Shown piece by piece: positions 1 through 61,442 of a stretch of 64,000 bases of DNA. Both the position numbers and the translations under genes were made by a program. The DNA is taken from assembly GCA_963920705.1 (NCBI GenBank), contig OY987240.1, forward strand, positions 5,916,766-5,980,765, given 5' to 3'. Source of the DNA: Odiellus spinosus. Taxonomy: Eukaryota; Arthropoda; Arachnida; Opiliones; Phalangiidae. Position 1 is the first letter of the stretch. Each line of letters opens with the position of its first letter. A model generated the notes under the pieces. The model had not been told where the DNA came from. It saw nothing but the letters and a program-made list of their open reading frames with translations, and searched no databases.

Positions 1-32
1 GAAGGACCGAGGTTCGAGTCCTGGTAGGTACA
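1..32 (+). tRNA. tRNA-Val 3' end, cut by the window start
   Basis: Only the end of the anticodon stem, the variable region, the T-arm and the 3' acceptor strand TAGGTAC plus A are inside the window. The anticodon is not visible. The T stem carries the CGAGG variant seen in the AAC-type units with a weakened fold. Confidence 0.85.
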
Positions 33-109
33 ATGTTGAACTTTCATTGAACTTTGGTATTTTATATCATTTTTGCTTTTATAAAAGATATACAACAGTT
101 GAAGGATAA

Positions 110-182
110 TTATCTATGGTGTAGTGGTAATCACGTCCGCCTTACACGCGGAAGGACCCAGGTTCGAGCCCTGGTAGGTACA
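110..182 (+). tRNA. tRNA-Val(TAC) with base 1 changed
   Basis: The acceptor begins TTATCTA, so T1 faces C72 and the first pair is lost; the rest of the fold is intact. Other units with the same change include 856, 4141, 6279, 8792, 11937 and 27038. It sits in the ATAATTATCTA or TTTAATTATCTA context. Confidence 0.8.
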
Positions 183-409
183 ATTTTAAACTTTCATTGA
201 ACTTCAGTATTTTATGTCATTTTTGCTTTTATAAAAGGTACAGTATTTTCTGATCTTAAGTATCTATGGTGTAGTGGTTATCACGTCCGCCTCACACGCG
301 GAAGGACCCAGGTTCGACCCCTGGTAGGTACAATGTTAAATTTTCATTGAACTTCAGTATTTTATGTCTTTTTTGCTTTTATAAAAGGTACAGTACTTTC
401 TGATCTTAA

Positions 410-482
410 GTATCTATGGTGTAGTGGTTATCACGTCCGCCTAACACGCGGAAGGACCCAGGTTCGAGCCCTGGTAGATACA
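410..482 (+). tRNA. tRNA-Val(AAC), reference copy
   Basis: Reads GUU, and GUC/GUA if A34 is inosine. The acceptor GTATCTA/TAGATAC pairs perfectly at all seven positions, and all other stems pair. It is followed by the ATGTTAAG-type spacer that usually accompanies AAC members. Confidence 0.92.
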
Positions 483-706
483 ATGTTAAGATTTCATTGA
501 TCTTTGGTATTTTATGTCGTTTTTGTTTTTATAAAAGATATACAACAGAAGGGTAAGTATCTATTGTGTAGTGGTTATCACGTCCGCCTCACACGCAGAA
601 GGACCCAGGTTCGAGTCCTGGTAGATACAATGTTAAGCTATCATTGAACTTTGGTATTTTATGTCATTTTTGCTTTTATAAAAGATATACAACAGATGAA
701 GGATAA

Positions 707-779
707 GTATCTATGGTGTAGTGGTAATCACGTCCGCCTTACACGCGGAAGGACCCAGGTTCGAGCCCTGGTAGGTACA
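707..779 (+). tRNA. tRNA-Val(TAC), reference copy
   Basis: Reads GUA. All stems pair fully, and the D-loop is the GGTAATCAC variant typical of TAC members. It is preceded by the GATATACAACAGATGAAGGATAA leader type, with TATAAAA at -30. Confidence 0.92.
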
Positions 780-1301
780 ATGTTAAACTTTCATTGAACT
801 TCAGTATTTTATGTCATTTTTGCTTTTATAAAAGGTACAGTACTTTATGATTTAATTATCTATGGTGTAGTGGTTATCACGTCCGCCTCACACGCGGAAG
901 GACCCAGGTTCGAGCCCTGGTAGGTACAATGTTAAACTTTCATTGAACTTCAGAATTTTATGTCATTTTTGCTTTTATAAAAGGTACAGTACTTTCTGAT
1001 CTTAAGTATCTAAGGTGTAGTGGTTATCACGTCCGCCTAACACGCGGAAGGACCGAGGTTCGAGCGCTGGTAGATACAAAGTTGAGATTTCATTGATCTT
1101 TGGTATTTTTGTCATTTTTGTTTTTATAAATGACATACAACAGAAGGGTAAGTATCTATGGTGTAGTGGTTATCACTTCCGCCTCACACGCGGAAGGACC
1201 CAGGTTCGAGCCCTGGTAGGTACAATGTTAAACTTTCATTGAACTTCAGTATTTTATGTCATTTTTGCTTTTATAAAAGGTACAGTACTTTCTGATCTTA
1301 A

Positions 1302-1374
1302 GTATCTATGGTGTAGTGGTTATCACGTCCGATTTACACGCGGAAGGACCCAGGTTCGAGCCTTGCTAGGTACA
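1302..1374 (+). tRNA. tRNA-Val(TAC), GATTT class with weak stems
   Basis: The anticodon stem is TCCGA, giving A31 opposite G39. The T stem ends CTTGC, giving C49 opposite C65. This allele recurs about once per higher-order repeat (2709, 4587, 6725, 8942, 14368, 25257, 43912, 54713, 60749). It may be a pseudogene class. Confidence 0.7.
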
Positions 1375-1451
1375 ATGTTAAACTTTCATTGAACTTCAGT
1401 ATTTTATGTCATTTATGCTTTTATAAAAGGTACAGTACTTTCTGATCTTAA

Positions 1452-1524
1452 GTGTCCATGGTGTAGTGGTTATCACGTCCGCCTAACACGCGGAAGGACC
1501 CAGGTTCGAGCCCTGGTAGATACA
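1452..1524 (+). tRNA. tRNA-Val(AAC), GTGTCCA acceptor class
   Basis: The 5' acceptor strand is GTGTCCA instead of GTATCTA, leaving a C6-A67 mismatch against TAGATAC. The body of the tRNA is intact. The class recurs at 2021, 5123, 9478, 13066, 28160, 45463, 49267, 53697 and 59703. Confidence 0.75.
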
Positions 1525-1595
1525 ATGTTAAGCTTTCATTGATCTTTGGGATTTTATGTAATTTTTGCTTTTATAAAAGATATACAACAGAAGAT

Positions 1596-1643
1596 GTCCG
1601 CCTTACACGCGGAAGGACCCAGGTTCGAGCCCTGGTAGGTACA
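1596..1643 (+). pseudogene. 3'-half tRNA-Val(TAC) remnant
   Basis: The leader GATATACAACAGAAG runs straight into tRNA position 26, so the acceptor 5' strand and the D-arm are absent. The anticodon arm, T-arm and 3' acceptor strand are intact. About two dozen identical-type copies exist, including adjacent pairs (2165 and 2284; 7105 and 7224; 14748 and 14867). It has a B-box but no A-box. Confidence 0.85.
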
Positions 1644-2528
1644 ATGTTGAACTTTCATTGAACTTTGGTATTTTATGTCATTTTTGCTTTTGTAAAAGAT
1701 ATACAACAGATGAAGGATAAGTATCTATGGTGTAGTGGTAGTCACGCCCGCCTTACACGCGGAAGGGCCCAGGTTCGAGCCCTGGTAGGTACAATGTTAA
1801 ACTTTCATTGAACTTCAGTATTTTATGTCATTTTTGCTTTTATAAAAGGTACAGTACTTTCTGATCTTAAGTATCTATGGTGTAGTGGTTATCACGTCCG
1901 CCTCACACTCGGAAGGACCCAGGTTCGAGCCCTGGTAGGTACAATGTTAAACTTTCATTGAACTTCAGTATTTTATGTCATTTTTGCTTTTATAAAAGGT
2001 ACAGTACTTTCTGGTCTTAAGTGTCCATGGTGTAGTGGTTATCACGTCCGCCTAACACGCGGAAGGACCCAGGTTCGAGCCCTGGTAGATACAATGTTAA
2101 GCTTTCATTGATCTTTGGGATTTTATGTAATTTTTGCTTTTATAAAAGATATACAACAGAAGGTGTCCGCCTTACACGCGGAAGGACCCAGGTTCGAGAC
2201 CTGGTAGGTACAATGTTGAACTTTCATTGAACTTTGGTATTTTATGTCATTTTTGCTTTTATAAAAGATATACAACAGAAGGTGTCCGCCTTACACGCGG
2301 AAGGACCCAGGTTCGAGCCCTGGTAGGTACAATGTTGAACTTTCATTGAACTTTGGTATTTTATGTCATTTTTGCTTTTATAAAAGATATACAACAGACG
2401 AAGGATAAGTATCTATGGTGTACTGGTAATCACGTCCGCCTTACACGCGGAAGGACCCAGGTTCGAGCCCTGGTAGGTACAATTTTAAACTTTCATTGAA
2501 CTTCAGTATTTTATGTCATTTTTGCTTT

Positions 2529-2535: not shown

Positions 2536-2565
2536 GGTACAGTATTTTCTGATCTTAAGTATCTA

Positions 2566-2858: not shown

Positions 2859-2913
2859 GTATCTATGGTATAGTGGTTATCACGTCTGCCTAACACGCGG
2901 AAGGACCCAGGTT
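2859..2913 (+). pseudogene. tRNA-Val(AAC) fused to spacer in the T-loop
   Basis: The sequence is tRNA-like to positions 54-55 and then jumps into the spacer at GTATAAAAG, losing the rest of the T-arm, the 3' acceptor strand and about half a spacer. Similar fusions lie at 4737, 6875, 9092, 12533, 14518, 16476, 27634, 30322, 31732, 44062, 47077 and 60899, so one deletion event was multiplied. Confidence 0.85.
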
Positions 2914-10634: not shown

Positions 10635-13600
10635 TATCTATGGTGTAGTGGTTATCACGTCCGCCTAACACGCGGAAGGACCCAGGTTCGAGCCCTGGTA
10701 GTTACAATGTTAAGCTCTCATTGATCTTTGGGATTTTATGTCATTTTTGCTTTTATAAAAGATATACAACAGAAGGTGTCCGCCTTACACGCGGAAGGAC
10801 CCAGGTTCGAGCCCTGGTAGGTACAATGTTGAACTTTCATTGAACTTTGGTATTTTCGGTCATTTTTGCTTTTATAAAAGATATACAACAGATGAAGGAT
10901 AAGTATCTATGGTGTAGTGGTAATCACGTCCGCCTTACACGCGGAAGGGCCCTGGTAGGTACAATGTTAAGATTTCATTGATCTTTGGTATTTTATGTCA
11001 TTTTTGCTTTTATAAAAGATATACAACAGGTGAAGGATAAGTATCTATGGCGTAGTGGTTATCACGTCCGCATAACGCGCGGAAGGACCGAGGTTCGAGT
11101 CCTTGTAGGTACAATGTTGAACTTTCATTGAACTTTGGTATTTTATATCATTTTTGCTTTTATAAAAGATATACAACAGTTGAAGGATAATTATCTATGG
11201 TGTAGTGGTAATCACGTCCGCCTTACACGCGGAAGGACCCAGGTTCGAGCCCTGGTAGGTACAATTTTAAACTTTCATTGAACTTCAGTATTTTATGTCA
11301 TTTTTGCTTTTATAAAAGGTACAGTATTTTCTGATCTTAAGTATCTATGGTGTAGTGGTTATCACGTCCGCCTCACACGCGGAAGGACCCAGGTTCGACC
11401 CCTGGTAGGTACAATGTTAAATTTTCATTGAACTTCAGTATTTTATGTCTTTTTTGCTTTTATAAAAGGTACAGTACTTTCTGATCTTAAGTATCTATGG
11501 TGTAGTGGTTATCACGTCCGCCTAACACGCGGAAGGACCCAGGTTCGAGCCCTGGTAGATACAATGTTAAGATTTCATTGATCTTTGGTATTTTATGTCG
11601 TTTTTGTTTTTATAAAAGATATACAACAGAAGGGTAAGTATCTATTGTGTAGTGGTTATCACGTCCGCCTCACACGCAGAAGGACCCAGGTTCGAGTCCT
11701 GGTAGATACAATGTTAAGCTATCATTGTACTTTGGTATTTTATGTCATTTTTGCTTTTATAAAAGATATACAACAGATGAGGGATAATTATCTATGGTGT
11801 AGTGGTAATCACGTCCGCCTTACACGCGGAAGGACCCAGGTTCGAGCCCTGGTAGGTACAATGTTAAACTTTCATTGAACTTCAGTATTTTATGTCATTT
11901 TTGCTTTTATAAAAGGTACAGTACTTTATGATTTAATTATCTATGGTGTAGTGGTTATCACGTCCGCCTCACACGCGGAAGGACCCAGGTTCGAGCCCTG
12001 GTAGGTACAATGTTAAACTTTCATTGAACTTCAGAATTTTATGTCATTTTTGCTTTTATAAAAGGTACAGTACTTTCTGATCTTAAGTATCTAAGGTGTA
12101 GTGGTTATCACGTCCGCCTAACACGCGGAAGGACCGAGGTTCGAGCGCTGGTAGATACAAAGTTGAGATTTCATTGATCTTTGGTATTTTTGTCATTTTT
12201 GTTTTTATAAATGACATACAACAGAAGGGTAAGTATCTATAGTGTAGTGGTTATCACTTCCGCCTCACACGCGGAAGGACCCAGGTTCGAGCCCTGGTAG
12301 GTACAATGTTAAACTTTCATTGAACTTCAGTATTTTATGTCATTTTTGCTTTTATAAAAGGTACAGTACTTTCTGATCTTAAGTATCTATGGTGTAGTGG
12401 TTATCACGTCCGAATTACACGCGGAAGGACCCAGGTTCGAGCCTTGCTAGGTACAATGTTAAACTTTCATTGAACTTCAGTATTTTATGTCATTTATGCT
12501 TTTATAAAAGGTACAGTACTACCTGAACTTAAGTATCTATGGTATAGTGGTTATATCGTCTGCCTAACACGCGGAAGGACCCAGGTTGTATAAAAGATAT
12601 ACAACAGATGAAGGATAAGTATCTATGGTGTAGTGGTTATCACGTCCGCCTCACACGCGGAAGGACCCAGGTTCGAGCCCTGGTAGGTACATTGATAAAC
12701 TTTCATTGAACTTCAGGAATTTATGTTATTTTTGCTTTTATAAAAGGTACAGTGCTTTCTGATCTTAAGTATCTATGGTGTAGTGGTTATCACGTCCGCC
12801 TAACACGCGGAAGGACCCAGGTTCGAGCCCTGGTAGATACAATGTTAAGATTTCATTGATCTTTGGTATTTTATGTCATTTTTGTTTTTATAAAAGATAT
12901 ACAACAGGAGGGTAAGTATCTATGAAGTAGTGGTTATCACGTCCGCCTCACACGCGGAAGGACCCAGGTTCGAACCCTGGTAGGTACAATGTTAAACTTT
13001 CATTGAACTTCAGTATTTTATGTCATTTTTGCTTTTATAAAAGGTACAGTACTTTCTGATCTTAAGTGTCCATGGTGTAGTGGTTATCACGTCCGCCTAA
13101 CACGCGGAAGGACCAAGGTTCGAGCCCTGGTAGTTACAATGTTAAGCTTTCATTGATCTTTGGGATTTTATGTCATTTTTGCTTTTATAAAAGATATACA
13201 ACAGAAGGTGTCCGCCTTACACGCGGAAGGACCCAGGTTCGAGCCCTGGTAGGTACAATGTTGAACTTTCATTGAACTTTGGTATTTTATGTCATTTTTG
13301 CTTTTATAAAAGATATACAACAGATGAAGGATAAGTATCTATGGTGTAGTGGTAATCACGTCCGCCTTACACGCGGAAGGGCCCTGGTAGGTACAATGTT
13401 AAACTTTCATTTAACTATGGTATTTTATGTCATTTTTGCTTTTATAAAAGGTACAGTAGTTCGTGATCTTAAGTATCTATGGTGTAGTGGTTATCACGTC
13501 CGCCTCACCCGCGGAAGGACGCAGGTTCGAGCCCTGGTAGGTACAATGTTGAACTTTAATTGAGCTTCGGTATTTTATGTCATTTTTGCTTTTATAAAAG

Positions 13601-32530: not shown

Positions 32531-33235
32531 TCATAAGTATCTATGGTGTAGTGGTTATCACGTCCGCCTCACACGCGGAAGGACCCAGGTTCGAGCCCTG
32601 GTAGGTGCAATGTTAAACTTTCATTGAACTTCAGTATTTTATGTCATTTTTGCTTTTATAAAAGGTACAGTACTTTCTGATCTTAAGTATCTATGGTGTA
32701 GTGGTTATCACGTCCGCCTAACACGCGGAAGGACCCAGGTTCATTGATCTTTGGTATTTTATGTCATTTTGCTTTTATAAAAGGTACAGTACTTCCTGAT
32801 CTTAAGTATACATGGTGTAGTGGTTATCACGTCCGCCTATCACGCGGAGGGATTCAGGTTCGAGCCCTGGTAGATAATATGTTAATATTTCTTTGATCTT
32901 TGGTATTTTATGTCATTTTTGTTTTTATAAAAGATATACAACAGAAGGGTAAGTATCTATGGTGTAGATACACGCGGAAGGACCCAGGTTCGAGCCCTGG
33001 TAGGTACAATGTTAAACTTTCATTGAACTTTGGTATTTTATGTCATTTTTGCTTTTATAAAAGGTACAGTACTTCGTGATCTTAAGTATCTATGGTGTAG
33101 TGCTTATCACGTCCGCCTCACACGCGGAAGGACCCAGGTTCGAGCCCTGGTAGGTACAATGTTAAACTTTCATTGAACTTCAGTATTTTATGTCATTTTT
33201 GCTTTTATAAAAGGTACAGTACTTTCTGATCTTAA

Positions 33236-34253: not shown

Positions 34254-34326
34254 CTATCGATGGTGTAGTGGTTATCACGTCCGCCTAGCACGCGGAAGGA
34301 CCCAGGTTCGAGCCCTGGTAGGTACA
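34254..34326 (+). tRNA. tRNA-Val-derived unit with AGC anticodon
   Basis: Loop CTAGCAC gives anticodon AGC at 34287-34289, formally an Ala (GCU) reader. The acceptor CTATCGA/TAGGTAC has mismatches at positions 1 and 6; the other arms are intact. Body elements remain valine-like, so a tRNA scan would call a mixed isotype. Confidence 0.6.
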
Positions 34327-36017: not shown

Positions 36018-36090
36018 CTATCGATGGTGTAGTGGTTATCACGTCCGCCTAGCACGCGGAAGGACCCAGGTTCGAGCCCTGGTAGGTACA
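36018..36090 (+). tRNA. tRNA-Val-derived unit with AGC anticodon (duplicate)
   Basis: Same allele as the unit at 34254, carried by the +1764 tandem duplication. It has the same acceptor mismatches. Confidence 0.6.
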
Positions 36091-37184: not shown

Positions 37185-37257
37185 CTATCGATGGTGTAGT
37201 GGTTATCACGTCCGCCTAGCACGCGGAAGGACCCAGGTTCGAGCCCTGGTAGGTACA
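37185..37257 (+). tRNA. tRNA-Val-derived unit with AGC anticodon (duplicate)
   Basis: Same allele as at 36018, in the next tandem higher-order repeat (offset 1167). Confidence 0.6.
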
Positions 37258-40754: not shown

Positions 40755-40827
40755 GTATCTATGGCGTAGTGGTTATCCGGTCCGCCTAATGCTCGGAAGG
40801 ACCGAGGTTCGAGTCCTGGTAGATACA
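40755..40827 (+). tRNA. tRNA-Val-derived unit with AAT anticodon
   Basis: Loop CTAATGC gives anticodon AAT at 40788-40790, formally an Ile (AUU) reader. It belongs to the weakened GCGTAGTGG class, with C31-T39 and D-stem mismatches. A pseudogene is likely. The duplicate at 42172 keeps AAC, so the change is recent. Confidence 0.55.
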
Positions 40828-43321: not shown

Positions 43322-43394
43322 GTATCTATGGTGTAGTGGTTATCACGTCCGCCTTGCACGCGGAAGGACACAGGTTCGAGCCCTGGTAGGTACA
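43322..43394 (+). tRNA. tRNA-Val-derived unit with TGC anticodon
   Basis: Loop CTTGCAC gives anticodon TGC at 43355-43357, an Ala (GCA) reader. The acceptor GTATCTA/TAGGTAC is intact; the only stem defect I see is A49 opposite G65. Its duplicate at 30992 keeps TAC, so A35G happened after that duplication. This is the best-folded anticodon-changed member. Confidence 0.65.
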
Positions 43395-46180: not shown

Positions 46181-46253
46181 CTATCGATGGTGTAGTGGTT
46201 ATCACGTCCGCCTAGCACGCGGAAGGACCCAGGTTCGAGCCCTGGTAGGTACA
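46181..46253 (+). tRNA. tRNA-Val-derived unit with AGC anticodon (distant duplicate)
   Basis: Same allele at offset 11927 from 34254, within a copied block that starts near 45613. Confidence 0.6.
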
Positions 46254-48220: not shown

Positions 48221-50044
48221 ATTGATCTTTGGTATTTTATGTCATTTTGCTTTTATAAAAGGTACAGTACTTCCTGATCTTAAGTATACATGGTGTAGTG
48301 GTTATCACGTCCGCCTATCACGCGGAGGGATTCAGGTTTGAGCCCTGGTAGATAATATGTTAATCTTTCTTTGATCTTTGGTATTTTATGTCATTTTTGT
48401 TTTTATAAAAGATATACAACAGAAGGGTAAGTATCTATGGTGTAGATACACGCGGAAGGACCCAGGTTCGAGCCCTGGTAGGTACAATGTTAAACTTTCA
48501 TTGAACTTTGGTATTTTATGTCATTTTTGCTTTTATAAAAGGTACAGTACTTCGTGATCTTAAGTATCTATGGTGTAGTGGTTATCACGTCCGCCTCACA
48601 CGCGGAAGGACCCAGGTTCGAGCCCTGGTAGGTACAATGTTAAACTTTCATTGAACTTCAGTATTTTATGTCATTTTTGCTTTTATAAAAGGTACAGTAC
48701 GTTCTGATCTTAAGTTTCCATGGTGTAGTGGTTATCACGTCCGCCTAACACGCGGAAGGACCCAGGTTCGAGCCCTGGTAGATACAATGTTAAGCTTTCA
48801 TTGATCTTTGGGATTTTATGTAATTTTTGCTTTTATAAAAGATATACAACAGGTGAAGGATAAGTATCTATGGCGTAGTGGTTATCCGGTCCGCCTAACG
48901 CTCGGAAGGACCGAGGTTCGAGTCCTGGTAGATACAATGTTAAGTTATCATTGATCTTTGGGATTTTATGTCATTTTTGCTTTTATAAAAGATATACAAC
49001 AGAAGGTGTCCGCCTTACACGCGGAAGGACCCAGGTTCGAGCCCTGGTAGGTAAAATGTTAAACTTTCATTGAACTTTGGTATTTTATGTCATTTTTGCT
49101 TTTATAAAAGGTACAGTACTACGTGATGTAGTGGTTATCACGTCCGCCTCACACGCGGAAGGACCCAGGTTCGAGCCCTGGTAGGTACAATGTTAAACTT
49201 TCATTGAACTTCAGTATTTTATGTCATTTTTGCTTTTATAAAAGGTACAGTACTTTCTGATCTTAAGTGTCCATGGTGTAGTGGTTATCACGTCCGCCTA
49301 ACACGCGGAAGGACCCAGGTTCGAGCCCTGGTAGTTACAATGTTAAGCTTTCATTGATCTTTGGGATTTTATGTCATTTTTGCTTTTATAAAAGATATAC
49401 AACAGAAGGTGTCCGCCTTACACGCGGAAGGACCCAGGTTCGAGCCCTGGTAGGTACAATGTTGAACTTTCATTGAACTTTGGTATTTTATGTCATTTTT
49501 GCTTTTATAAAAGATATACAACAGATGAAGGATAAGTATCTATGGTGTAGTGGTAATCACGTCCGCCTTACACGCGGAAGGGCCCTGGTAGGTACAATGT
49601 TAAGATTTCATTGATCTTTGGTATTTTATGTCATTTTTGCTTTTATAAAAGATATACAACAGGTGAAGGATAAGTATCTATGGTGTAGTGGTAATCACGT
49701 CCGCCTTACACGCGGAAGGACCCAGGTTCGAGCCCTGGTAGGTACAATGTTAAACTTTCATTGAACTTCAGTATTTTATGTCATTTTTGCTTTTATAAAA
49801 GGTACAGTACTTTCTGATCTTAAGTATCTATGGTGTAGTGGTTATCACGTCCGCCTAACACGCGGAAGGACCCAGGTTCATTGATCTTTGGTATTTTATG
49901 TCATTTTGCTTTTATAAAAGGTACAGTACTTCCTGATCTTAAGTATACATGGTGTAGTGGTTATCACGTCCGCCTATCACGCGGAGGGATTCAGGTTTGA
50001 GCCCTGGTAGATAATATGTTAATCTTTCTTTGATCTTTGGTATT

Positions 50045-50854
50045 TTATGTCATTTTTGTTTTTATACAAGTTGGGAAAACCCAAAATGGTACCTCCCCGA
50101 GCACTAACCGAACCTGATTTCTAGCACGTTCGGCTTCAGCATATTCTTCCTCTTGGCGTCTAAAAGCCTTCGCTAACTGATTTCTAGCACGTTCGGCTTC
50201 AGTACATTCTACCTCTTGGCGTCTAAAAGCCATCGCCGACTGATTTCTAGCACGTTCGGCTTCAGTATATTCTACCTCTTGGCGTTTAAAACCCATCGCT
50301 AACTGATTTCTAGCACGTTCTGCTTCAGTATATCCTACATCTTGGCGTTTATCAGCCATTGCCAACTGACTTCTAGCCCGTTCTGCTTCTGTATATCCTA
50401 CCTCTTGGCGTTTATCAGCCATGGCTAGCCTTTTTCTAGCTCGTTCTACTTCTGTATATTCTGCGTCTTTGCGCGATTTTTTTTTCGCTAGCGAACCTGC
50501 ACTATTGTTGGCCCTCGGTTCTGAGTTAGAGGTGGAAGGTTGATTTTCATCCTTTGGAGAAGTTATAAAACCCTCCATTACCTGTATTCCTACCACTTCA
50601 GTATTGCTTTTAACTACATTGGTAGATGGCGGTACTTCGTAATTATCTTGCCTAGCAATAGCGCGTGATAAGATCACTTCAGTCGGAGTAACAGTTATAT
50701 TAGTACCGGACACAATGACTTTCTTTTGGGCCGCTAAATCTTTCCTTCTTTCACATTCTCTCCTACGATATTCTGGATCAGCTCTGCGTTCTCTCATTCT
50801 CTCTCTAGCTTTACTCTTTCTTAATTCCTCTTTGCTAATATCTTCGTCTCCCAT
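50045..50854 (-). CDS. Charged repeat protein of the inserted element, 269 codons, unknown function
   Basis: Starts at an ATG (50854) encoding MGDEDISKEELRKSKARER. The first 45 residues are Arg/Lys/Glu-rich with ADPEYRRRECERRK, a style of motif seen at the N-terminus of many invertebrate Helitron helicase proteins. A low-complexity linker follows (residues about 46-125), then six 21-residue repeats built on YTEAERARNQ, probably helical. The frame runs through the left element edge into tRNA-array spacer, so its last residues are host sequence and the stop is accidental. It is likely the N-terminal stump of a longer transposase-type gene. Upstream DNA is AT-rich with no clear promoter. Confidence 0.5.
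   Translation of the reverse strand: MGDEDISKEELRKSKARERMRERRADPEYRRRECERRKDLAAQKKVIVSGTNITVTPTEVILSRAIARQDNYEVPPSTNVVKSNTEVVGIQVMEGFITSPKDENQPSTSNSEPRANNSAGSLAKKKSRKDAEYTEVERARKRLAMADKRQEVGYTEAERARSQLAMADKRQDVGYTEAERARNQLAMGFKRQEVEYTEAERARNQSAMAFRRQEVECTEAERARNQLAKAFRRQEEEYAEAERARNQVRLVLGEVPFWVFPTCIKTKMT
50071..50084. other. Terminal hairpin of the inserted element
   Basis: TTGGGAAAACCCAA forms a five-pair stem with a four-base loop, four bases from the left element edge. Confidence 0.6.
50114..50491 (-). repeat. Six 63-bp tandem repeats coding 21-residue units
   Basis: The landmark CTGATTTCTAGC or its variants recurs at 50114, 50177, 50240, 50303, 50366 and 50429, an exact 63-bp step. The period is a multiple of three and keeps the frame; most changes retain the charged YTEAERAR pattern. 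Confidence 0.85.
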
Positions 50855-52370
50855 TTTTTATGATTAAAATTTTTAAAGTAAATAATACCCAAACGCAATA
50901 ATAAAAATCCAAATCGAAGTTGAATGAATTCAAAACTACAATCTCAAGAAAGTGTTAAATAACTCTTAACACAAAGTAAAATAAATTACTAACGAATACA
51001 AAAACCAAATAGAGAGTAACTACTTTGATCTTCAAAGTAAACATTAAACTCGTACACTTGAGTAACAAAAAATATATCAGAATTCAATCGGTAAAGCGTA
51101 AAATAATATTTTACGAAAATAGAAATTTATAGCTTTAGAAAAAAAAATAATGAATCGGAAATAACCATTGTTTTTCAACAATTATTCCAATTCTAAACTC
51201 AATAATAAATCGAAACAAAATTAGAATTCAAGCGATTGAAAATAGCAATCTTCAGTAAATATTTGGTACAGATATAATAAGAATATCTCAATTAAACACT
51301 AAATACATCAATTAAATAATTGAAAGGAAAAATTAATTTGTTACCGAGAATAAGTTGAATTCGAAGAATTCGAAGAATCCAAAATTTCATAGAGGGAACT
51401 TTTATGTAAACTAGCTTGATCAAGAAGTAAATAAATTATGGATTAAGCAAGTCTTTCAAGAATTAAAATCAATTAAAAAGAAAAAAAGGTCAAGGTTACT
51501 CTGATAAAACCATATGGGAAATACGGTACTAGAGTATTTGTAAACCAAGTAACGCCAATAAGCAAAACTTTATATGCATGACTTCGGAATAGTTGACACA
51601 ATCCTAAGCAAACAATAAACACATTATCTTTCCGCGTGTGAGTCTAAAACAAGGCTTATGGCGTAAAATTTCGGTTTTTGGTGATACTCGGTCTATAGAT
51701 ACGCAATTAAATGACGGCCGAATCAGTATTTCGCGCTTATATATGCGCCGAGAAACGATAAACTAATTAAAAAATTCAATCCCATGATAAAAGAAACACC
51801 TACAATTTTAACAACGGTGGCTAAGCTAAAAAATTAAATCAATCTATCAAAATTATATACAAGAGTATAGACATTTGTATACAACTTGTATTAGATTTTC
51901 AATCCACCCTGAGTTTGCAGCAAGCCTAAGCCTAGAGTACCGTTATACTTATGCTTTTTGAACTAAATGGTATATGGAAAATAGCTTAGCGCGTGCTGCC
52001 AACTCTAGCTGGTATCATAACGCTCATTTTTCTTTAAATTTTGGACTATTTCTTAAATATCTTCTAAACTATCTCCAATTTTAAATTTAATTTTCAACTA
52101 AATTATAAATTAGATTAAGTGAAACAATTGTAATATTTTTAATTACATTTTAAATTAATATTACGTTTCAATTCACCAAAAGATATCCCGGCATAAGGCA
52201 ACTTTACACTTTACGCTTCCAAAGAGACTATAAAAGCGAATCGAATGCCATTATATAGTATCCGATTGTGGTAAGATCTGGTGGACACCCCAACTTATCA
52301 AAGCTCAAAGGTTCTGGCATTGAGTGTTCACGTGTCGGTCAATTTACCCTTGGGGGGCGATGTTTGGAGA
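50855..52370. other. AT-rich interior of the inserted element, no gene seen
   Basis: About 1.5 kb, strongly AT-rich, with no convincing reading frame on either strand. It may hold the 5' flank of the minus-strand gene. I see no recognisable motif. Confidence 0.5.
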
Positions 52371-52640
52371 GTGGATGGTTGACGTGGACCATATTAGTGA
52401 GGGACGCCTCGCTAGTATGGCCCGCTGAGATCGGAAACTGGAGGTTGGACCTTGGTGTGTGGATGGTCGGAGGTGATTATAACAGTGGGAGACGTCCCAT
52501 TGGCTATAATCGCCTTCAACTGTCCGGCATCGAGGTTCGAACATGATGTGGATGGTGGAAGGTGATAATATGCAATGGGAGACGTCCGGTTGCATAATAT
52601 TGCACGACACCTGAAGCTCAATTTGGCAGCCAGATTATAG
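52371..52640. repeat. Three 88-bp modules, each with a GACG-capped hairpin
   Basis: Modules begin GTGGATGGT at 52371, 52459 and 52548. Each holds a hairpin with apical loop GACG. Hairpin 1 (52389-52420) has a 14-pair stem, hairpin 2 lies at 52475-52511 and hairpin 3 at about 52564-52603. Stem sequences differ between modules while pairing is kept. The region is GC-richer than the rest of the element. Confidence 0.65.
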
Positions 52641-52802
52641 GAATTCCCGTTGAACGGAATTGAACGATAAGAAGGCATGATTACGTCACTAGACTTTTGA
52701 TCCGATTATTAAGGTCACGTGATATCCGGTTACACCGGAAATTGTGTACACCGGAAGCCACAAACACACACACAGACACACAGACTGACACGACGAACGT
52801 AA
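52641..52802. other. Subterminal region with CA-rich tract
   Basis: Contains two ACACCGGA copies and a CACACACACAGACACACAGAC-like simple stretch (about 52760-52790) leading to the right-end palindrome. No coding potential is seen. Confidence 0.5.
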
Positions 52803-52836
52803 TACCTCCCCGTGAACTAGTTCACTCGGGGAGGTA
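52803..52836. repeat. Right-end palindrome containing the terminal inverted repeat
   Basis: TACCTCCCCG and CGGGGAGGTA flank the perfect palindrome GTGAACTAGTTCAC, making a long hairpin at the element's right edge. The outer motif also occurs at the left end (50090-50101). Confidence 0.75.
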
Positions 52837-52860
52837 AAAAGATATACAACAGAAGGGTAA

Positions 52861-52916
52861 GTATCTATGGTGTAGATACACGCGGAAGGACCCAGGTTCG
52901 AGCCCTGGTAGGTACA
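52861..52916 (+). pseudogene. tRNA-Val remnant lacking D-arm 3' strand and anticodon
   Basis: GTATCTATGGTGTAG runs into ATACACGCGG, removing 17 bases including the anticodon's first bases. The unit is 56 nt. Copies are at 32953, 39081, 40322, 41739 and 48431. Confidence 0.8.
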
Positions 52917-53556
52917 ATGTTAAACTTTCATTGAACTTTGGTATTTTATGTCATTTTTGCTTTTATAAAAGGTACAGTACTTCGTGATCTTAAGTATCTA
53001 TGGTGTAGTGGTTATCACGTCCGCCTCACACGCGGAAGGACGCAGGTTCGAGCCCTGGTAGGTACAATGTTAAACTTTCATTGAACTTCAGTATTTTATG
53101 TCATTTTTGCTTTTATAAAAGGTACAGTACGTTCTGATCTTAAGTTTCCATGGTGTAGTGGTTATCATGTCCGCCTAACACGCGGAAGGACCCAGGTTCG
53201 AGCCCTGGTAGATACAATGTTAAGCTTTCATTGATCTTTGGGATTTTATGTAATTTTTGCTTTTATAAAAGATATACAACAGGTGAAGGATAAGTATCTA
53301 TGGCGTAGTGGTTATCCGGTCCGCCTAACGCTCGGAAGGACCGAGGTTCGAGTCCTGGTAGATACAATGTTAAGTTATCATTGATCTTTGGGATTTTATG
53401 TCATTTTTGCTTTTATAAAAGATATACAACAGAAGGTGTCCGCCTTACACGCGGAAGGACCCAGGTTCGAGCCCTGGTAGGTAAAATGTTAAACTTTCAT
53501 TGAACTTTGGTATTTTATGTCATTTTTGCTTTTATAAAAGGTACAGTACTACGTGA

Positions 53557-53619
53557 TGTAGTGGTTATCACGTCCGCCTCACACGCGGAAGGACCCAGGT
53601 TCGAGCCCTGGTAGGTACA
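53557..53619 (+). pseudogene. tRNA-Val(CAC) lacking the 5' acceptor strand
   Basis: The leader GTACTACGTGA joins directly to TGTAGTGG of the D-arm (about tRNA position 11). The rest to A73 is intact. Copies are at 38375, 47575 and 49127, and a doubly shortened one at 40073. Confidence 0.8.
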
Positions 53620-54937
53620 ATGTTAAACTTTCATTGAACTTCAGTATTTTATGTCATTTTTGCTTTTATAAAAGGTACAGTACTTTCTGATCTTAAGTGT
53701 CCATGGTGTAGTGGTTATCACGTCCGCCTAACACGCGGAAGGACCCAGGTTCGAGCCCTGGTAGTTACAATGTTAAGCTTTCATTGATCTTTGGGATTTT
53801 ATGTCATTTTTGCTTTTATAAAAGATATACAACAGAAGGTGTCCGCCTTACACGCGGAAGGACCCAGGTTCGAGCCCTGGTAGGTACAATGTTGAACTTT
53901 CATTGAACTTTGGTATTTTATGTCATTTTTGCTTTTATAAAAGATATACAACAGGTGAAGGATAAGTATCTATGGCGTAGTGGTTATCACGTCCGCATAA
54001 CGCGCGGAAGGACCGAGGTTCGAGTCCTGGTAGGTACAATGTTGAACTTTCATTGAACTTTGGTATTTTATATCATTTTTGCTTTTATAAAAGATATACA
54101 ACAGATGAAGGGTAAGTATCTATGGTGTAGTTGTAATCACGTCCGCCTTACACGCGGAAGGACCCAGGTTCGAGCCCTGGTAGGTACAATTTTAAACTTT
54201 CATTGAACTTCAGTATTTTATGTCATTTTTGCTTTTATAAAAGGTACAGTATTTTCTGATCTTAAGTATCTATGGTGTAGTGGTTATCACGTCGGCCTCA
54301 CACGCGGAAGGACCCAGGTTCGAGCCCTGGTAGGTACAATGTTAAACTTTCATTGAACTTCAGTATTTTATGTCTTTTTTGCTTTTATAAAAGGTACAGT
54401 ACTTTCTGATCTTAAGTATCTATCGTGTAGTGGTTATCACGTCCGCCTAACACGCGGAAGGACACAGGTTCGAGCCCTGCTAGATACAATGTTAAGATTT
54501 CATTGATCTTTGGTATTTTATGTCATTTTTGTTTTTATAAAAGATATACAACAGAAGGGTAAGTATCTATTGTGTAGTGGTTATCACGTCCGCCTCACAC
54601 GCGGAAGGACCCAGGTTCGAGCCCTGGTAGGTACAATGTTAAACTTTCATTGAACTTCAGTATTTTATGTCATTTTTGCTTTTATAAAAGGTACAGTACT
54701 TTCTGATCTGAAGTATCTATGGTGTAGTGGTTATCACGTCCGATTTACACGCGGAAGGACCCAGGTTCGAGCCTTGCTAGGAACAATGTTAAACTTTCAT
54801 TGAACTTCAGTATTTTATGTCATTTTTGCTTTTATAAAAGGTACAGTACTTTCTGATCTTAAGTATCTATGGTGTAGTGGTTATCACGTCCGCCTAACAC
54901 GCGGAAGGACCCAGGTTCGATCCCTGGTAGATACAAT

Positions 54938-54942
54938 GTTAA
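54938..54942. repeat. Left target-site duplication GTTAA
   Basis: GTTAA of the spacer ATGTTAAG precedes the element. The same five bases follow it at 59479-59483, and removing the element restores an ordinary array spacer. Confidence 0.9.
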
Positions 54943-54958
54943 TGTGGAAATAGTTCAC

Positions 54959-55802
54959 TGTGCAACGCTCTTAACTCTTGAACATTACTAGATTTTTGCA
55001 CTTGTTTTAATTTTAAAATGTTATTTAGCCTAGCGCTAATTATCAGTTCATTTCTACCAAATCGTTTCTGTAATACGTCTATTGCAATCTCATAGCTACT
55101 ATCACAAACAGTTAATCCTTCAATAGCCTTTTCAGCTGAACCCTCCAAATATGACCTTAGGTAAATGAACTTATCTGTTTTCGTCAAATCGGAGTCTTGA
55201 TTTATTGTTCCATCGAAATGAGACCAAAATCTTTGCCATTGTTCAATGTTCCCACTAAATTTCGGCATCTGCAATTTCGGTATTTTCACTTTGGATCTTG
55301 ACGATGAATTGGCACCCGAGACTCCTCCCGAAGCTCCTTGGTTTTGTTGTACTTGACTTTGATGGTTTTGACTCGGATTCTGCTGACTTTGACTTTTATT
55401 TTGCGTGGATTGGCTTGGGTTATTTATATTCTGCACGTTGAATGACGTTGCGCTACCCTGCACTGATACAGTTGTACTTCCGGCAGTACTTCCGTTTTGA
55501 ATTCGCTCGAGCCATCTCCTGGCTCTCTCCTTCCACAACGTCGTTCTATCGTTCCAATCCTCGACTTCATCCACCTCCTTAGTTAGGTCATCCGTCTCGA
55601 CGATCAGATCATATATTGCTTGATTAACTTTCGCAATTTTGTTTTCCCTGGAAACAACTTGAGCGATGTTGTCTGCTATGATTTCTTGATCTGGTTGCGG
55701 CTTGCCTAATTCGATTTCGATTTCATCTAGCGCCTTATTTAGGCTTTTTCGCATAGCCTCTCTTCTTATTACTTGCTTCTCGAGATCCGTTGGTTTCGAC
55801 AT
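54959..55802 (-). pseudogene. BEL/Pao gag part
   Basis: Begins MSKPTDLEKQ. An N-terminal helical region is followed by a Gln/Ser-rich linker, then a DUF1759-type capsid-like region (IPKLQMPKFSGNIEQWQRFW, later KTDKFIYLRSYLEGSAEKAI). This is the structural protein of a Pao-type element, here part of a broken fossil. Confidence 0.8.
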
Positions 55803-55824
55803 CTCAAATTCACGCGGAACACAA

Positions 55825-55842
55825 TCCCGGGTTTCGGCACCA
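55825..55842 (-). other. Second primer-binding site matching tRNA-Phe
   Basis: Same 18 bases as at 58669-58686, next to the middle LTR. Confidence 0.75.
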
Positions 55843-55846
55843 AACG

Positions 55847-56634
55847 TGTGGAAATAGTTCACCCTGCTATACGCTTGGCGCGGTGGGAGAGCTCTTAATT
55901 GTTAATGAGCCCCAGCGGACTGAAACACTGGACTCAGGGTTTAATTCTAATTTGTTGGTTCCGTGTTCGCGCGCGTGATCTTGAAATAAAGAAAACTTCT
56001 CTTTTTATCTAACATAAAATATCGCACACATTTATTTTTCTGAAATCTTACACAAGCACTTATTTTTAATCTTATTCTAAGCACATTTTTATCTCAGAGT
56101 GTAAGCCTGGCTAAGAAAGTTTCTTCCAGGTCTTACCCCTTCGCTCGCTCGTTCGCTTGTACTAAACTGGTTAAAAACCCCTATTTTTGGCCCCGCACGC
56201 TCTATTTTTCGTTATGTGGCCAAATTCTTTTATTATCTATGCTTGCGACCAATGTCGCCTGGGAGCACTGACAACCCACAGAAAAGCCTTCTATCCCTTT
56301 CGTGGAATTTCCCCGACCGGCAAACACCACTCGCACACGTGGGCTGCTTAAACTTGTTCTTGTTCGAAAGGGAGAATTTCAATGGGAGGGGCGCTACCCC
56401 TTTCTTACTTCAAGAAATTCCCCCCTAGAACAGGTTTTCTTTCTTAGCTCTCGTTTTCAACAAACATTTAAGAAAATATACAAGTATAAAGAGAAAAAAT
56501 GAACAAAATATATATATACAGATCAGCGCTGACAAAACAAATTATTTACATGAATATACACTTATTCACAACAAATACACTGGAAATAATAATTAGCACG
56601 AAAATTACACCAAATTGTTCTACAATATTTAACA
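55847..56634 (-). repeat. LTR of the BEL/Pao fossil (middle copy)
   Basis: 788 bp with TG...CA ends, near-identical to 58691-59478 at offset 2844. A polypurine tract abuts it on the internal side. Small reading frames inside it are not genes. Confidence 0.9.
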
Positions 56635-56646
56635 CCCTCCCCCCTT
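56635..56646 (-). other. Polypurine tract
   Basis: On the minus strand AAGGGGGGAGGG lies directly before the LTR, the usual place for plus-strand priming. Confidence 0.8.
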
Positions 56647-56667
56647 GAACGTTGTTCAAGAGAAGAC

Positions 56668-58300
56668 TCAAAATTCTAAATTATATAAAAGTTGAATCGG
56701 GCGCCTAAGCTGCGACCCGTTTGGTAAACGCACTAGGCATGACCGAACTATGCCATCTCTACCCTTTATGGCATCTGCTACCACCGCGAGCATCCACATA
56801 GATCTAGGTACTTTAGCGTCTTCGATTAACACTACGTCACCGATTTTTACCTCTTTGGTGGGCTCCCCCCGAACGTCCGTTCGGTGGTGAGCAGACCGTA
56901 ATTCAAGCAAATAATTGCTTTTCCAACGCGCCCAGAAACGCTCCAGGAGCACTTGCCTATATTTTAACCGCTTTGTTAGCTCTTGTCGGTTTACCGTTGG
57001 CGACATGTCACTAGAAAATGTTTGTGCCGGTAGAGCTGTTAACCGTTTGCCCACTAAAAAATGAGCGGGAGTAAGAGGTTCGGGTTCTCCTGGATTTTCA
57101 TAAATATACGTCATGGGACGCGAATTTATGGTTGCTTCAATTTCAATTAGGATTGTCTGAATCTCTTCATAGGTCAGGTGGGCCCGACCCATGACTTTGC
57201 GGAGGGATGTTTTCACGGAGCGGACCATCCGCTCCCAAAATCCACCCCACCATGCAGCTCTGTCCGCGATGTTTCTCCATTTTATTTTTAACCCTCCGAA
57301 AAATTCCACGACCTCGGGGCTTCTCATGTGATCTAGTAGTATTTGAAGATCTGCGTCAGCTCGTTTAAATGTTGTAGCGTTATCACTAAAAATAACGCGA
57401 GCTATCCCTCGGCGCGCTATAAATCGGCGGAAAGACATCAAGAAACTTTCCGTGGTCAAGTCCGTCACGAGCTCTAGGTGCACTGCACGCGTGACGGCAC
57501 AAGTGAAAAGAGTGATATAACACTTCTTATTTGGTTTAGCGTAGAGAGGACCAGCGTGGTCAACTCCGCAAATTTCAAATGGTGGCGCTGGGTTAATTCT
57601 CAGTTCCGGTAGAGGAGCCATCACTGCAGATGAGGGTCTCGCCCGATAAATCTTGCATCTAGGGCACGAATAAATTACTTTATTTATCAATTGGCGCGCT
57701 TTGGGGACCCAATATTGCTCTCGGATTTCTATTATAACGTCGTTGACGCCGGCATGTTTTAGCCTAATGTGGTGATACCACCCGAGTAGGAACGCTAATT
57801 GGTGATTTTCTGGTATAATTCTGGGGTGACGCTCGCTATACGACATCTTAGCGGCTCCCAATCTGCCGCCTACGCACATGATTCCTTGTTCATCAAGGAA
57901 GGGACTCAGAGACAATATCGTTGACTTTCTATTAATTGGGAAACCAGACGTCAAGCTCTCAACCTCGTCTGGGAATTTTTCCAATTGAGCTCTTTGCACC
58001 CAATAAATTTCAGCTTTTACAAGTTCCTCAGGTGTAAGTGGCCCCTTAATCTTGTTGCATCTTGGTTTGGCATTCTGAGCAAACCGCTTAATCCAGGCCG
58101 TAATCTTTAAAACTTGGTTAAATCCGCTATGTCTTTTCAAATCAAACATGGCTTCCTTGGCTTCTTCCGCTTTACTCATGTTTACCCCTACGTTGAGGGT
58201 TTTCTCTCGCAGCTCGTCTTTAATTTCGCTCGGAATGTCGTCATTAATGAAAAATTCTGGCTCTGTGTAATTGCTCTCGGTCAAGAAGGCAGGTCCGTGA
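56668..58300 (-). pseudogene. BEL/Pao pol C-terminal part with integrase
   Basis: In order: the CELWLHGPAFL linker region, a His/Cys zinc-binding segment (HHIRLKHAGV to CPRCKIYRA), an rve integrase core (VDHAGPLY, FSDNATTF, WWGGFWERMV), and a C-terminal DUF5641-type region ending near QLRRPIQLLYNLEF. It belongs to a broken fossil. Confidence 0.85.
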
Positions 58301-58646
58301 AGCCACAACTCACAGTTGTACTTCCGGCAGTACTTCCGTTTTGAATTCGCTCGAGCCATCTCCTGGCTCTCTCCTTCCACAACGTCGTTCTATCGTTCCA
58401 ATCCTCGACTTCATCCACCTCCATAGCTAGGTCATCCGTCTCGACGATCAGATCATATATTGCTTGATTAACTTTCGCAATTTTGTTTTCCCTGGAAACA
58501 ACTTGAGCGATGTTGTCTGCTATGATTTCTTGATCTGGTTGCGGCTTGCCTAATTCGATTTCGATTTCATCTAGCGCCTTATTTAGGCTTTTTCGCATAG
58601 CCTCTCTTCTTATTACTTGCTTCTCGAGATCCGTTGGTTTCGACAT
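58281..58646 (-). pseudogene. BEL/Pao gag N-terminal part (second copy)
   Basis: Same N-terminal gag region as at 54959-55802, with a couple of residue differences, directly after the outer LTR and primer site. Confidence 0.8.
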
Positions 58647-58668
58647 CTCAAATTCACGCGGAACACAA

Positions 58669-58686
58669 TCCCGGGTTTCGGCACCA
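58669..58686 (-). other. Primer-binding site matching tRNA-Phe
   Basis: The plus strand reads TCCCGGGTTTCGGCACCA, the 3' end of animal tRNA-Phe(GAA) plus CCA. It lies four bases from the LTR, so tRNA-Phe would prime minus-strand synthesis. The tRNA identity is from memory of the family. Confidence 0.75.
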
Positions 58687-58690
58687 AACG

Positions 58691-59478
58691 TGTGGAAATA
58701 GTTCACCCTGCTATACGCTTGGCGCGGTGGGAGAGCTCTTAATTGTTAATGAGCCCCAGCGGACTGAAACACTGGACTCAGGGTTTAATTCTAATTTGTT
58801 GGTTCCGTGTTCGCGCGCGTGATCTTGAAATAAAGAAAACTTCTCTTTTTATCTAACATAAAATATCGCACACATTTATTTTTCTGAAATCTTACACAAG
58901 CACTTATTTTTAATCTTATTCTAAGCACATTTTTATCTCAGAGTGTAAGCCTGGCTAAGAAAGTTTCTTCCAGGTCTTACCCCTTCGCTCGCTCGTTCGC
59001 TTGTACTAAACTGGTTAAAAACCCCTATTTTTGGCCCCGCACGCTCTATTTTTCGTTATGTGGCCAAATTCTTTTATTATCTATGCTTGCGACCAATGTC
59101 GCCTGGGAGCACTGACAACCCACAGAAAAGCCTTCTATCCCTTTCGTGGAATTTCCCCGACCGGCAAACACCACTCGCACACGTGGGCTGCTTAAACTTG
59201 TTCTTGTTCGAAAGGGAGAATTTCAATGGGAGGGGCGCTACCCCTTTCTTACTTCAAGAAATTCCCCCCTAGAACAGGTTTTCTTTCTTAGCTCTCGTTT
59301 TCAACAAACATTTAAGAAAATATACAAGTATAAAGAGAAAAAATGAACAAAATATATATATACAGATCAGCACTGACAAAACAAATTATTTACATGAATA
59401 TACACTTATTCACAACAAATACACTGGAAATAATAATTAGCACGAAAATTACACCAAATTGTTCTACAATATTTAACA
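58691..59478 (-). repeat. LTR of the BEL/Pao fossil (outer copy)
   Basis: 788 bp, the 5' LTR in element orientation, directly followed by the primer-binding site and gag start. Confidence 0.9.
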
Positions 59479-59483
59479 GTTAA
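59479..59483. repeat. Right target-site duplication GTTAA
   Basis: Matches 54938-54942. Five-base duplications are usual for BEL/Pao integrase. Confidence 0.9.
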
Positions 59484-60002
59484 GATGTCATTGATCTTTG
59501 GTATTTTATGTCATTTTTGCTTTTATAAAAGATATACAACAGATGAAGGATAAGTATCTATGGTGTAGTGTAATCACGTCCGCCTCACACGCGGAAGGAC
59601 CCAGGTTCGAGCCCTGGTAGGTACAATGTTAAACTTTCATTGAACTTCAGTATTTTATGTCATTTTTGCTTTTATAAAAGGTACAGTACTTTCTGATCTT
59701 AAGTGTCCATGGTGTAGTGGTTATCACGTCCGCCTAACACGCGGAAGGACCCGGGTTCGAGCCCTGGTAGTTACAATGTTAAGATTTCATTGATCTTTGG
59801 TATTTTATGTCATTTTTGCTTTTATAAAAGATATACAACAGGTGAAGGATAAGTATCTATGGCGTAGTGGTTATCACGTCCGCATAACGCGCGGAAGGAC
59901 CGAGGTTCGAGTCCTGGTAGGTACAATGTTGAACTTTCATTGAACTTTGGTATTTTATATCATTTTTGCTTTTATAAAAGATATACAACAGATGAAGGGT
60001 AA

Positions 60003-60075
60003 GTATCTATGGTGTAGTGGTAATCACGTCCGCCACACACGCGGAAGGACCCAGGTTCGAGCCCTGGTAGGTACA
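60003..60075 (+). tRNA. tRNA-Val(CAC) with base 33 changed to A
   Basis: The anticodon loop is CACACAC, so the near-universal U33 that makes the U-turn is A. The rest of the fold is intact. It is probably a recent, non-functional change. Confidence 0.65.
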
Positions 60076-60448
60076 ATTTTAAACTTTCATTGAACTTCAG
60101 TATTTTATGTCATTTTTGCTTTTATAAAGGTACAGTATTTTCTGATCTTAAGTATCTATGGTGTAGTGGTTATCACGTCCGCCTAACACGCGGAAGGACC
60201 CAGGTTCGAGCCCTGGTAGATACAATGTTAAGATTTCATTGATCTTTGGTATTTTATGTCATTTTTGTTTTTATAAAAGATATACAACAGAAGGGTAAGT
60301 ATCTATTGTGTAGTGGTTATCACGTCCGCCTCACACGCGGAAGGACCCAGGTTCGGGCCCTGGTAGGTACAATGTTAAACTTTCATTGAACTTCAGTATT
60401 TTATGTCATTTTTGCTTTTATAAAAGGTACAGTACTTTCTGATCTTAA

Positions 60449-60521
60449 GTATCTATGGTGTAGTGGTTATCACGTCCGCCTCACACGCGGAAGGACCCAG
60501 GTTCGAGCCCTGGTAGGTACA
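60449..60521 (+). tRNA. tRNA-Val(CAC), clean copy near the array end
   Basis: Identical in structure to the reference at 2559. Intact members therefore reach within 1 kb of the array edge. Confidence 0.9.
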
Positions 60522-61442
60522 ATGTTAAACTTTCATTGAACTTCAGTATTTTATGTCATTTTTGCTTTTATAAAAGGTACAGTACTTTCTGATCTTAAGT
60601 ATCTATGGTGTAGTGGTTATCACGTCCGCCTCACACGCGGAAGGACCCAGGTTCGAGCCCTGGTAGGCACAATGTTAAACTTTCATTGAACTTCAGTATT
60701 TTATGTCGTTTTTGCTTTTATAAAAGGTACAGTACTTTTTGATCTTAAGTATCTATGGTGTAGTGGTTATCACGTCCGATTTACACGCGGAAGGACCCAG
60801 GTTCGAGCTTTGCTAGGTACAATGTTAAACTTTCATTGAACTTCAGTATTTTATGTCATTTATGCTTTTATAAAAGGTACAGTACTACCTGAACTTAAGT
60901 ATCTATGGTATAGTGGTTATCACGTCTGCCTAACACGCGGAAGGACCCAGGTTGTATAAAAGATATACAACAGATGAAGGATAAGTATCTATTGTGTAGT
61001 GGTAATCACGTCCGCTTTACACGCGGAAGGACCCAGGTTCGAGCCCTGGTAGGTACAATGTTAAACTTTCATTGAACTTTGGTATTTTATGTCATTTTTG
61101 CTTTTATAAAAGGTACAGTACTTCGTGATCTTAAGTATCTATGGTGTAGTGGTTATCACGTCCGCCTCACACGCGGAAGGACCCTGGTTCGAGCCCCGGT
61201 AGGTACAATGTTAAACTTTCATTGAACTTTGGTATTTTATGTCATTTTTGCTTTTATAAAAGGTACAGTACTTCGTGATCTTAAGTATCTATGGTGTAGT
61301 GGTTATCACGTCCGCCTAACACGCGGAAGGACCCAGGTTCTAGCCCTGGTAGATACAATGTTAAGATGTCATTGATCTTTGGTGTTTTATGTCATTTTTG
61401 CTTTTATAAAAGATATACAACAGATGAAGGATAAGTATTCTT

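Follow-up and report, generated by a model that had tools for sequence, protein, structure and literature searches.

The window analysed here is a stretch of 64,000 nucleotides from the harvestman Odiellus spinosus (assembly GCA_963920705.1, contig OY987240.1, positions 5,916,766 to 5,980,765), and most of it is occupied by a head-to-tail array of units that each contain a valine transfer RNA (tRNA-Val) gene or what is left of one. It is rather likely that the array descends from a trimer of tRNA-Val isoacceptor genes which has grown by unequal exchange into a higher-order satellite, and that the constraint on each copy as a tRNA has been relaxed. An earlier account, made from the letters of the window only and below called the sequence-only reading, had offered four options for the array: an extreme valine tRNA dosage, a supply of tRNA fragments, chromatin bound by RNA polymerase III, or a satellite with a captured tRNA gene. 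The last is the best supported of these, through the higher-order arrangement of the units, the block duplications, the broken copies and a tRNA part whose rate of change is about that of the spacer.

A profile of the repeat unit, derived from 225 well-spaced units, gave 381 matches in the window, every one on the + strand. One unit, split by an insertion, accounts for two of these matches (54863-54944 and 59478-59552), and the number of units is thus 380, in agreement with the about 380 given by the sequence-only reading. The units follow each other head to tail over positions 1-61438, and their spacing has its mode at 150 bp. Two insertions (around 50067-52836 and 54943-59478) divide the array into three blocks, all on the + strand. 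The main block (1-50066) was delimited by the unit profile, ARAGORN and Rfam, with its right edge set by eye, and continues to the left of the window. The second block (52837-54942) lies between both insertions, and the final one (59479-61438) is bordered by unrelated DNA. When the insertions are subtracted a net length of about 54.1 kb remains, close to the 54 kb that had been proposed for one amino-acid family. The first match starts at profile column 42, the earlier part of its unit falling outside the left end of the window; the array is therefore longer than what is seen, and begins before the window as had been stated.

ARAGORN called 292 tRNAs, of which 282 are Val (CAC 112, AAC 92, TAC 78), and the calls comprise 103 distinct sequences. 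At the gathering score the Rfam family RF00005 gave 121 + 115 + 59 = 295 matches, the best with 67.1 bits (cut-off 29). The sequence-only reading would have been refuted by a failure of tRNAscan-SE to score most units as tRNA; with ARAGORN and Rfam the majority of the 381 profile matches are recognised as such. It had also counted 12 CAC, 10 TAC and 9 AAC genes, interleaved, in the first 5.4 kb, and ARAGORN returns exactly these numbers. A Val anticodon is found in 365 of the 379 readable units (TAC 133, AAC 119, CAC 113), the other 14 having ATC (8), AGC (4), AAT (1) or TGC (1), and two further units have no anticodon. The ten non-Val calls of ARAGORN (Asp-ATC 4, Ala-AGC 4, Ala-TGC 1, Ile-AAT 1) arise from changes at anticodon base 35 or 36. 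Some of them recur within repeated blocks and they are therefore taken as drifted Val copies. They are located at 30844-30918, 32807-32877, 34255-34325, 36019-36089, 37186-37256, 38935-39005, 40755-40827, 43174-43248, 43322-43394 and 46182-46252. Different filters give 296 near-complete tRNA bodies, 281 gapless bodies used for structure, in which up to two missing first bases were supplied from the window sequence, and 291 units of few gaps that served the tree and the counts of distinct units.

The isoacceptors follow each other in the order TAC, CAC, AAC and again TAC in 199 of the 378 neighbouring anticodon pairs, compared to 126 +/- 9 in 2000 shuffles, where the maximum was 154. One example of this trimer order is found at 110-556 (+ strand), with TAC at 110-182, CAC at 260-332 and AAC at 410-482, the spacers being included. 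Compared with the body most common in the CAC class, the commonest TAC and AAC bodies each have another wobble base and one further substitution, A20 in TAC and A69 in AAC. A20 is present in 56 of 79 TAC bodies and A69 in 65 of 109 bodies of the AAC class, and variants in the spacer are linked to the classes as well. The commonest intact TAC type is represented by the body at 707-779 (+ strand, 65.8 bits). Longer blocks are also repeated. A run of 32 consecutive units at 11789-16325 is found again at 17866-22403, both on the + strand, with a mean identity of 99.87%; 26 of the 32 unit pairs are identical and six differ. The array thus displays the pattern of a higher-order satellite, in which ordered multimers have been spread by block duplication. 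Together, the order of the isoacceptors and the near-identical multi-unit blocks (more than 99% alike) point to growth by unequal exchange and block duplication.

Each unit consists of a 73-nt mature tRNA and a spacer, the tRNA filling about half of the 150 bp. A TATA motif at -30, internal A- and B-boxes and a downstream T-run make up the layout of a complete gene for RNA polymerase III (Pol III). Both boxes, a TATA-like element upstream and a T-run terminator are present in most of the gapless units. TATAAAA begins at -30 in 229 of the 281 gapless bodies and is missing within 60 nt in 16, the first run of at least four T is situated at +28 in 233, and an internal TTTT occurs in none. At any column of the B-box core GGTTC at most 1.2% of the units vary. 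In their anatomy most gapless units are accordingly complete Pol III genes, and as far as the layout goes they are transcribable. A conserved part of the spacer is exemplified by 208-237 (+ strand), upstream of the CAC gene at 260, which contains three T-runs and a TATAAAA starting at 230, that is at -30.

Minimum-energy folding of three common bodies gave neither a cloverleaf nor any excess stability (z -0.11, -0.16 and -0.66). Unmodified tRNAs often fold in this way, and the result was given no weight. A73 is found in 348 of 358 units. Three features agree with the Val motif published for human and silkworm: the GUGU of the D stem, the UCCGC of the anticodon stem, and the U13-U22 mismatch. 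That motif has the acceptor strand GUUUCCG, the D stem GUGU, the anticodon stem UYYGC, the T stem CCCGG or CUGGG, and U13-U22 (PMC9023262). The acceptor strand of the array, GUAUCUA, differs from this motif at positions 3, 6 and 7, and its T stem, CCAGG, at position 51; all four positions are paired in the consensus. Provided that the published motif has Watson-Crick pairs at these places, four stem pairs would have been changed on both sides. Such paired changes would indicate that the founder was under selection ahead of the expansion. The tRNA of the array could instead be the ordinary tRNA-Val of an unstudied lineage. The kept Val hallmarks and the pairing at the differing stem positions suggest that the founder was probably a real, functional tRNA-Val.

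A body counts as strictly intact if it keeps A73, all of 20 stem pairs and each of eleven positions in loops or tertiary contacts; 102 of the 281 gapless bodies do so (CAC 57, AAC 23, TAC 22). Among the 381 matches, which include both pieces of the split unit, these 102 are intact, 55 have a single broken pair and 124 are degenerate; 49 more are of full length with insertions or deletions (indels), and 35 are truncated at the 5' end and 16 at the 3' end. The label 'tRNA-Val array' thus includes many pseudogenes. Of the 5'-truncated matches 34 read TAC, while the remaining one is merely cut by the window edge. Since all the readable ones are TAC, the 5' truncation probably arose in a single TAC unit and was then spread with the higher-order repeat. 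The unit at 1595-1719 (+ strand), which covers profile columns 25-149 and lacks the 5' acceptor strand and the A-box/D-arm side, is an example. A 3'-truncated unit is found at 2859-2913 (+ strand). It covers profile columns 1-55, after which the sequence continues with the TATA motif, so that both the T-runs and the 3' portion of the tRNA are gone.

When it comes to constraint on the tRNA body, a parsimony tree was made with the anticodon masked from the 157 distinct units found among the 291 over 150 columns (143 over 139 columns). It needs 2.14 steps per column in the tRNA (70 columns, anticodon excluded) and 2.37 in the other spacer (46 columns), p = 0.30. Judged by these steps, the A- and B-box columns are not clearly better kept than the remaining tRNA columns. 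For recent divergence, 19 blocks that had been duplicated recently provided 210 unit pairs. These differ at 58 of 13717 sites in the tRNA (4.23 per kb), at 45 of 9232 in the spacer (4.87 per kb) and at 3 of 627 in the anticodon (4.78 per kb), and with the spacer cut at column 128 the comparison of tRNA and spacer gives p = 0.74. In the 281 gapless bodies 15 of 56 minor stem alleles keep a standard pair, compared to 12.6 expected without constraint. The diversity within classes, calculated from distinct units with eight diagnostic spacer columns excluded, is for TAC higher in the tRNA than in the spacer (0.053 vs 0.032). The constraint per copy on tRNA structure thus appears relaxed and is at best weak, the diversity figures being mixed when the other two classes (see below) are taken into account.

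The course of events is rather likely to have been as follows. The starting point would be a cluster of three tRNA-Val genes (TAC, CAC and AAC) with nearly identical bodies, of which the founder was functional. This cluster would have been amplified head to tail, giving a higher-order satellite of monomers of about 150 bp, and unequal exchange and block duplication would have driven its growth. After the expansion the single copies would no longer have been clearly held to the structure of a tRNA, leaving about a quarter of them intact and the rest to decay or become truncated. Today the array is expected to be mostly silenced or to make a modest addition to the valine tRNA pool, and any function would be borne by the intact subset.

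Some observations weigh against this account. Every 10-kb stretch of the array has some of the 102 intact units, which represent 25 distinct sequences, although the last two stretches contain only 2 and 4. In the CAC and AAC classes the tRNA has less within-class diversity than the spacer (0.040 vs 0.075 and 0.075 vs 0.106, respectively). The T-runs and the TATA motif change little both in the tree and in the recent blocks, and pure drift leaves this unexplained. Finally, position 34 is A, C or T in all 379 readable units and never G.

Eukaryotic Val anticodons are expected to be without G34. The absence of G34 (0 of 379) was considered as proof of selection on the wobble base, and this was rejected. 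Because the three classes carry linked variants, a founder trimer and exchange explain most of the absence, and the trimer together with a few later changes can account for it as well. Position 34 has 18 parsimony steps, the highest number among the 150 columns, the next being 10. Pairs of distinct units that differ solely at position 34 number four, compared to five for column 59 and four for column 61. Anticodon bases 35 and 36, with 3 and 1 parsimony steps, display no special conservation. A change of the first anticodon base was found to underlie 39 of the 44 isoacceptor shifts identified in one study (PMC3923123), so it is not surprising that three classes should derive from one body.

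A less likely explanation is that the array is an active multigene locus which supplies much of the valine tRNA, with the three isoacceptors kept together and selection invisible at the level of the copy, in parallel to the tandem tRNA clusters used by secretory tissues. The extreme valine tRNA dosage proposed by the sequence-only reading is allowed by the anatomy, as there are intact copies of all three anticodons, none with G34, and most gapless units have both the TATA motif at -30 and the T-run at +28. The pairing of the founder stems where they depart from the published motif and the low tRNA diversity in the CAC and AAC classes agree with it too. A tRNA cluster may also be silent in most tissues and still be used, as described for the Ser-Tyr-Tyr cluster of Arabidopsis, which is reactivated in root cap cells (PMC12308677). 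The tests for selection, however, give it no clear support: tRNA body and spacer change at about equal rates, alleles that keep a stem pair show no clear excess, and about three quarters of the units are not strictly intact. In the 5S ribosomal RNA gene arrays of pike, by contrast, the genic regions are more homogeneous than the spacers (PMC5437419). High valine tRNA dosage is unproven. It keeps a minor chance since weak selection per copy in a large array would look alike; the loss of one copy in such an array is almost neutral, and for this reason a collective function may exist despite the weak constraint.

It is improbable, though somewhat encouraged by the T-runs and the TATA motif, that the array has been retained as DNA bound by Pol III or the TATA-binding protein (TBP), or otherwise structured, so that these motifs matter rather than the tRNA product. 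What was once a tRNA locus would then have been preserved for the Pol III signals outside the gene, its tRNA body drifting like spacer, and would have become a Pol III- or TBP-bound satellite with a role in chromatin or as a boundary; replication pausing, phasing of nucleosomes with the 150-bp unit, and heterochromatin would be other possible roles. In the tree the T-run (13) and TATA (7) columns have 0.35 parsimony steps per column, compared to 1.60 for random sets of A/T columns. In the recent blocks they differ at 2 of 4037 sites vs 41 of 10822 at other A/T sites (Fisher p = 0.0002, from overlapping pairs). The A/T runs of an adjacent satellite with units of 100 bp are not better kept than its other A/T sites (28 of 320 vs 40 of 737 differing, in 16 units), so the pattern in the array is not a plain homopolymer effect.

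The counts by class of the neighbouring unit are mixed. In the T-runs no site differs after units with one broken pair (0/715), after full-length units with indels (0/629) or after 5'-truncated units (0/455), whereas the count is 6/1313 when the preceding unit is intact and 20/1612 when it is degenerate. For the TATA motif the counts of differing sites, by the class of the unit that follows, are 0/112 (3'-truncated), 2/840 (degenerate), 1/329 (indel-bearing), 6/629 (intact), 2/238 (5'-truncated) and 7/385 (one broken pair). Compared with the other spacer, less its eight most variable columns, the motif is no better kept before 5'-truncated units (9 of 945 sites differing in the spacer, or 8 vs 10 per thousand) and before units with one broken pair (31 of 1485, or 18 vs 21 per thousand). 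The columns of these elements were chosen after the column table had been inspected, which makes the p-values optimistic, and the block pairs overlap. For these reasons the conservation is a lead only. Binding of Pol III should need the A- and B-boxes; their columns show no clear extra conservation, which argues against simple selection for such binding. A conversion bias or the local mutation rate could yield the same pattern. The low change in T-runs and TATA thus gives slight encouragement to the Pol III-bound chromatin suggested by the sequence-only reading, and the counts at the level of the copy do not bear it out evenly.

That the array is a tandemly amplified short interspersed element (SINE) derived from a tRNA, or another retro-copy, is very unlikely. 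The units do have a tRNA-like head with Pol III boxes, but they are arranged head to tail on a single strand, in the stretches inspected there is neither an A-rich tail nor a body unrelated to tRNA, target duplications between units are absent there as well, and the spacer contains the TATA motif at -30 of the next gene. An assembly artefact, in which a repeat has been inflated or mis-joined, is hardly credible even if runs of as many as 32 units are repeated with 99.87% identity, as 103 distinct sequences in 292 tRNA calls and 157 distinct units in 291 are hard to obtain by mis-assembly, the block copies differ in 6 of 32 units and an insertion has GTTAA flanks in the register of the array; the copy number itself could be off.

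The array, interpreted as a higher-order satellite grown from an isoacceptor trimer, may be compared with other tandem arrays of Pol III genes. Pike 5S rDNA comes nearest, as another Pol III gene that became a higher-order satellite with mixed spacer types, although its genes stayed homogeneous. It differs in having more than 20,000 copies which are methylated and without significant pseudogene formation (PMC5437419), while the present array consists of tRNA-Val genes with many broken copies. The Arabidopsis Ser-Tyr-Tyr cluster is likewise a group of three tRNA genes tandemly amplified at one place. It serves two amino acids and intersects heterochromatin (PMC12308677); the harvestman array has genes for one amino acid. 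Entamoeba has long tandem arrays of tRNA-bearing units as well, but with up to five tRNA genes per unit and, in E. histolytica and E. dispar, short tandem repeats between the genes. The copies of E. histolytica are mostly uniform within an isolate (PMC2652664), whereas many units here are degenerate and nearly all are Val. Compared with the tandem non-coding RNA and tRNA arrays of Hydractinia, as presented in part of that paper (PMC11067881), the array here differs in its 150-bp unit, its single amino acid and its three interleaved isoacceptors. In the human 1q23.3 repeat, tRNA genes are also found inside a tandem repeat. There the units are of 7.3 kb, with 9-43 per allele, and tRNA makes up less than 6% of the unit (PMC4041453), compared to about half of 150 bp here.

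Clusters of tRNA genes for the same amino acid have been defined and counted in a survey which also reports a syntenic turn-over close to that of unconstrained DNA, and the clustered share was 89% in Nematostella, 65% in zebrafish and 87% in stickleback. This survey deals with counts and pairs, and no higher-order isoacceptor trimer is described in the 12 of 26 passages covered (PMC2888827). In a spider genome 3,084 tRNAs for standard amino acids and 57,824 putative tRNA pseudogenes were predicted, the passages concerned leaving unstated whether they are in tandem; the figures show how many tRNA-like copies one animal genome can carry (PMC9912274). Tandem tRNA arrays are thus already known. 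What appears new is the interleaving of three isoacceptors of one amino acid in a higher-order satellite, as no 150-bp array of three isoacceptors of a single amino acid was found among the matches listed in the literature on tRNA arrays, clusters and satellites and on valine tRNA copy number, a literature from which subscription papers were mostly absent. Scans with exact patterns found 0 stretches in viral contigs and 0 in prokaryote genomes, which is valid for those collections and those patterns.

The array represents a natural experiment: one tRNA is present at a single place in hundreds of copies that range from intact to dead, which allows the parts played by mutation, homogenisation and selection to be told apart in Pol III genes. 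The array is also a warning that satellites can swell the tRNA counts obtained from genome annotation.

The first insertion (50067-52836, boundaries by eye) resembles a mobile element and is placed inside a TATA motif of the spacer. It contains a long open frame on the - strand (50045-50857, stop to stop) which is rich in repeated peptide, with repeats of about 21 residues, and a 63-bp tandem repeat at 50114-50473. At its right end there is a hairpin, TACCTCCCCG. Pfam was searched with three of the 31 open frames from 49800-64000, and no match was obtained for the 50045-50857 frame. The second insertion (54943-59478, - strand) is a remnant of a long terminal repeat (LTR) element with the Pfam domains DUF1759, DUF5641 and Integrase_H2C2, and from these domains we take it to be of the BEL/Pao type. 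It is bordered on both sides by GTTAA in the register of the array, and 746 bases are present twice in it without any difference (55757-56502 and 58601-59346). Its left end falls within the DUF1759 frame, despite the in-register GTTAA on both sides. A second tandem satellite, with units of about 91-100 bp, starts 0.9 kb past the end of the array, at 62366, and runs to position 64000, where it leaves the window; the array may therefore be situated in a repeat-rich neighbourhood.

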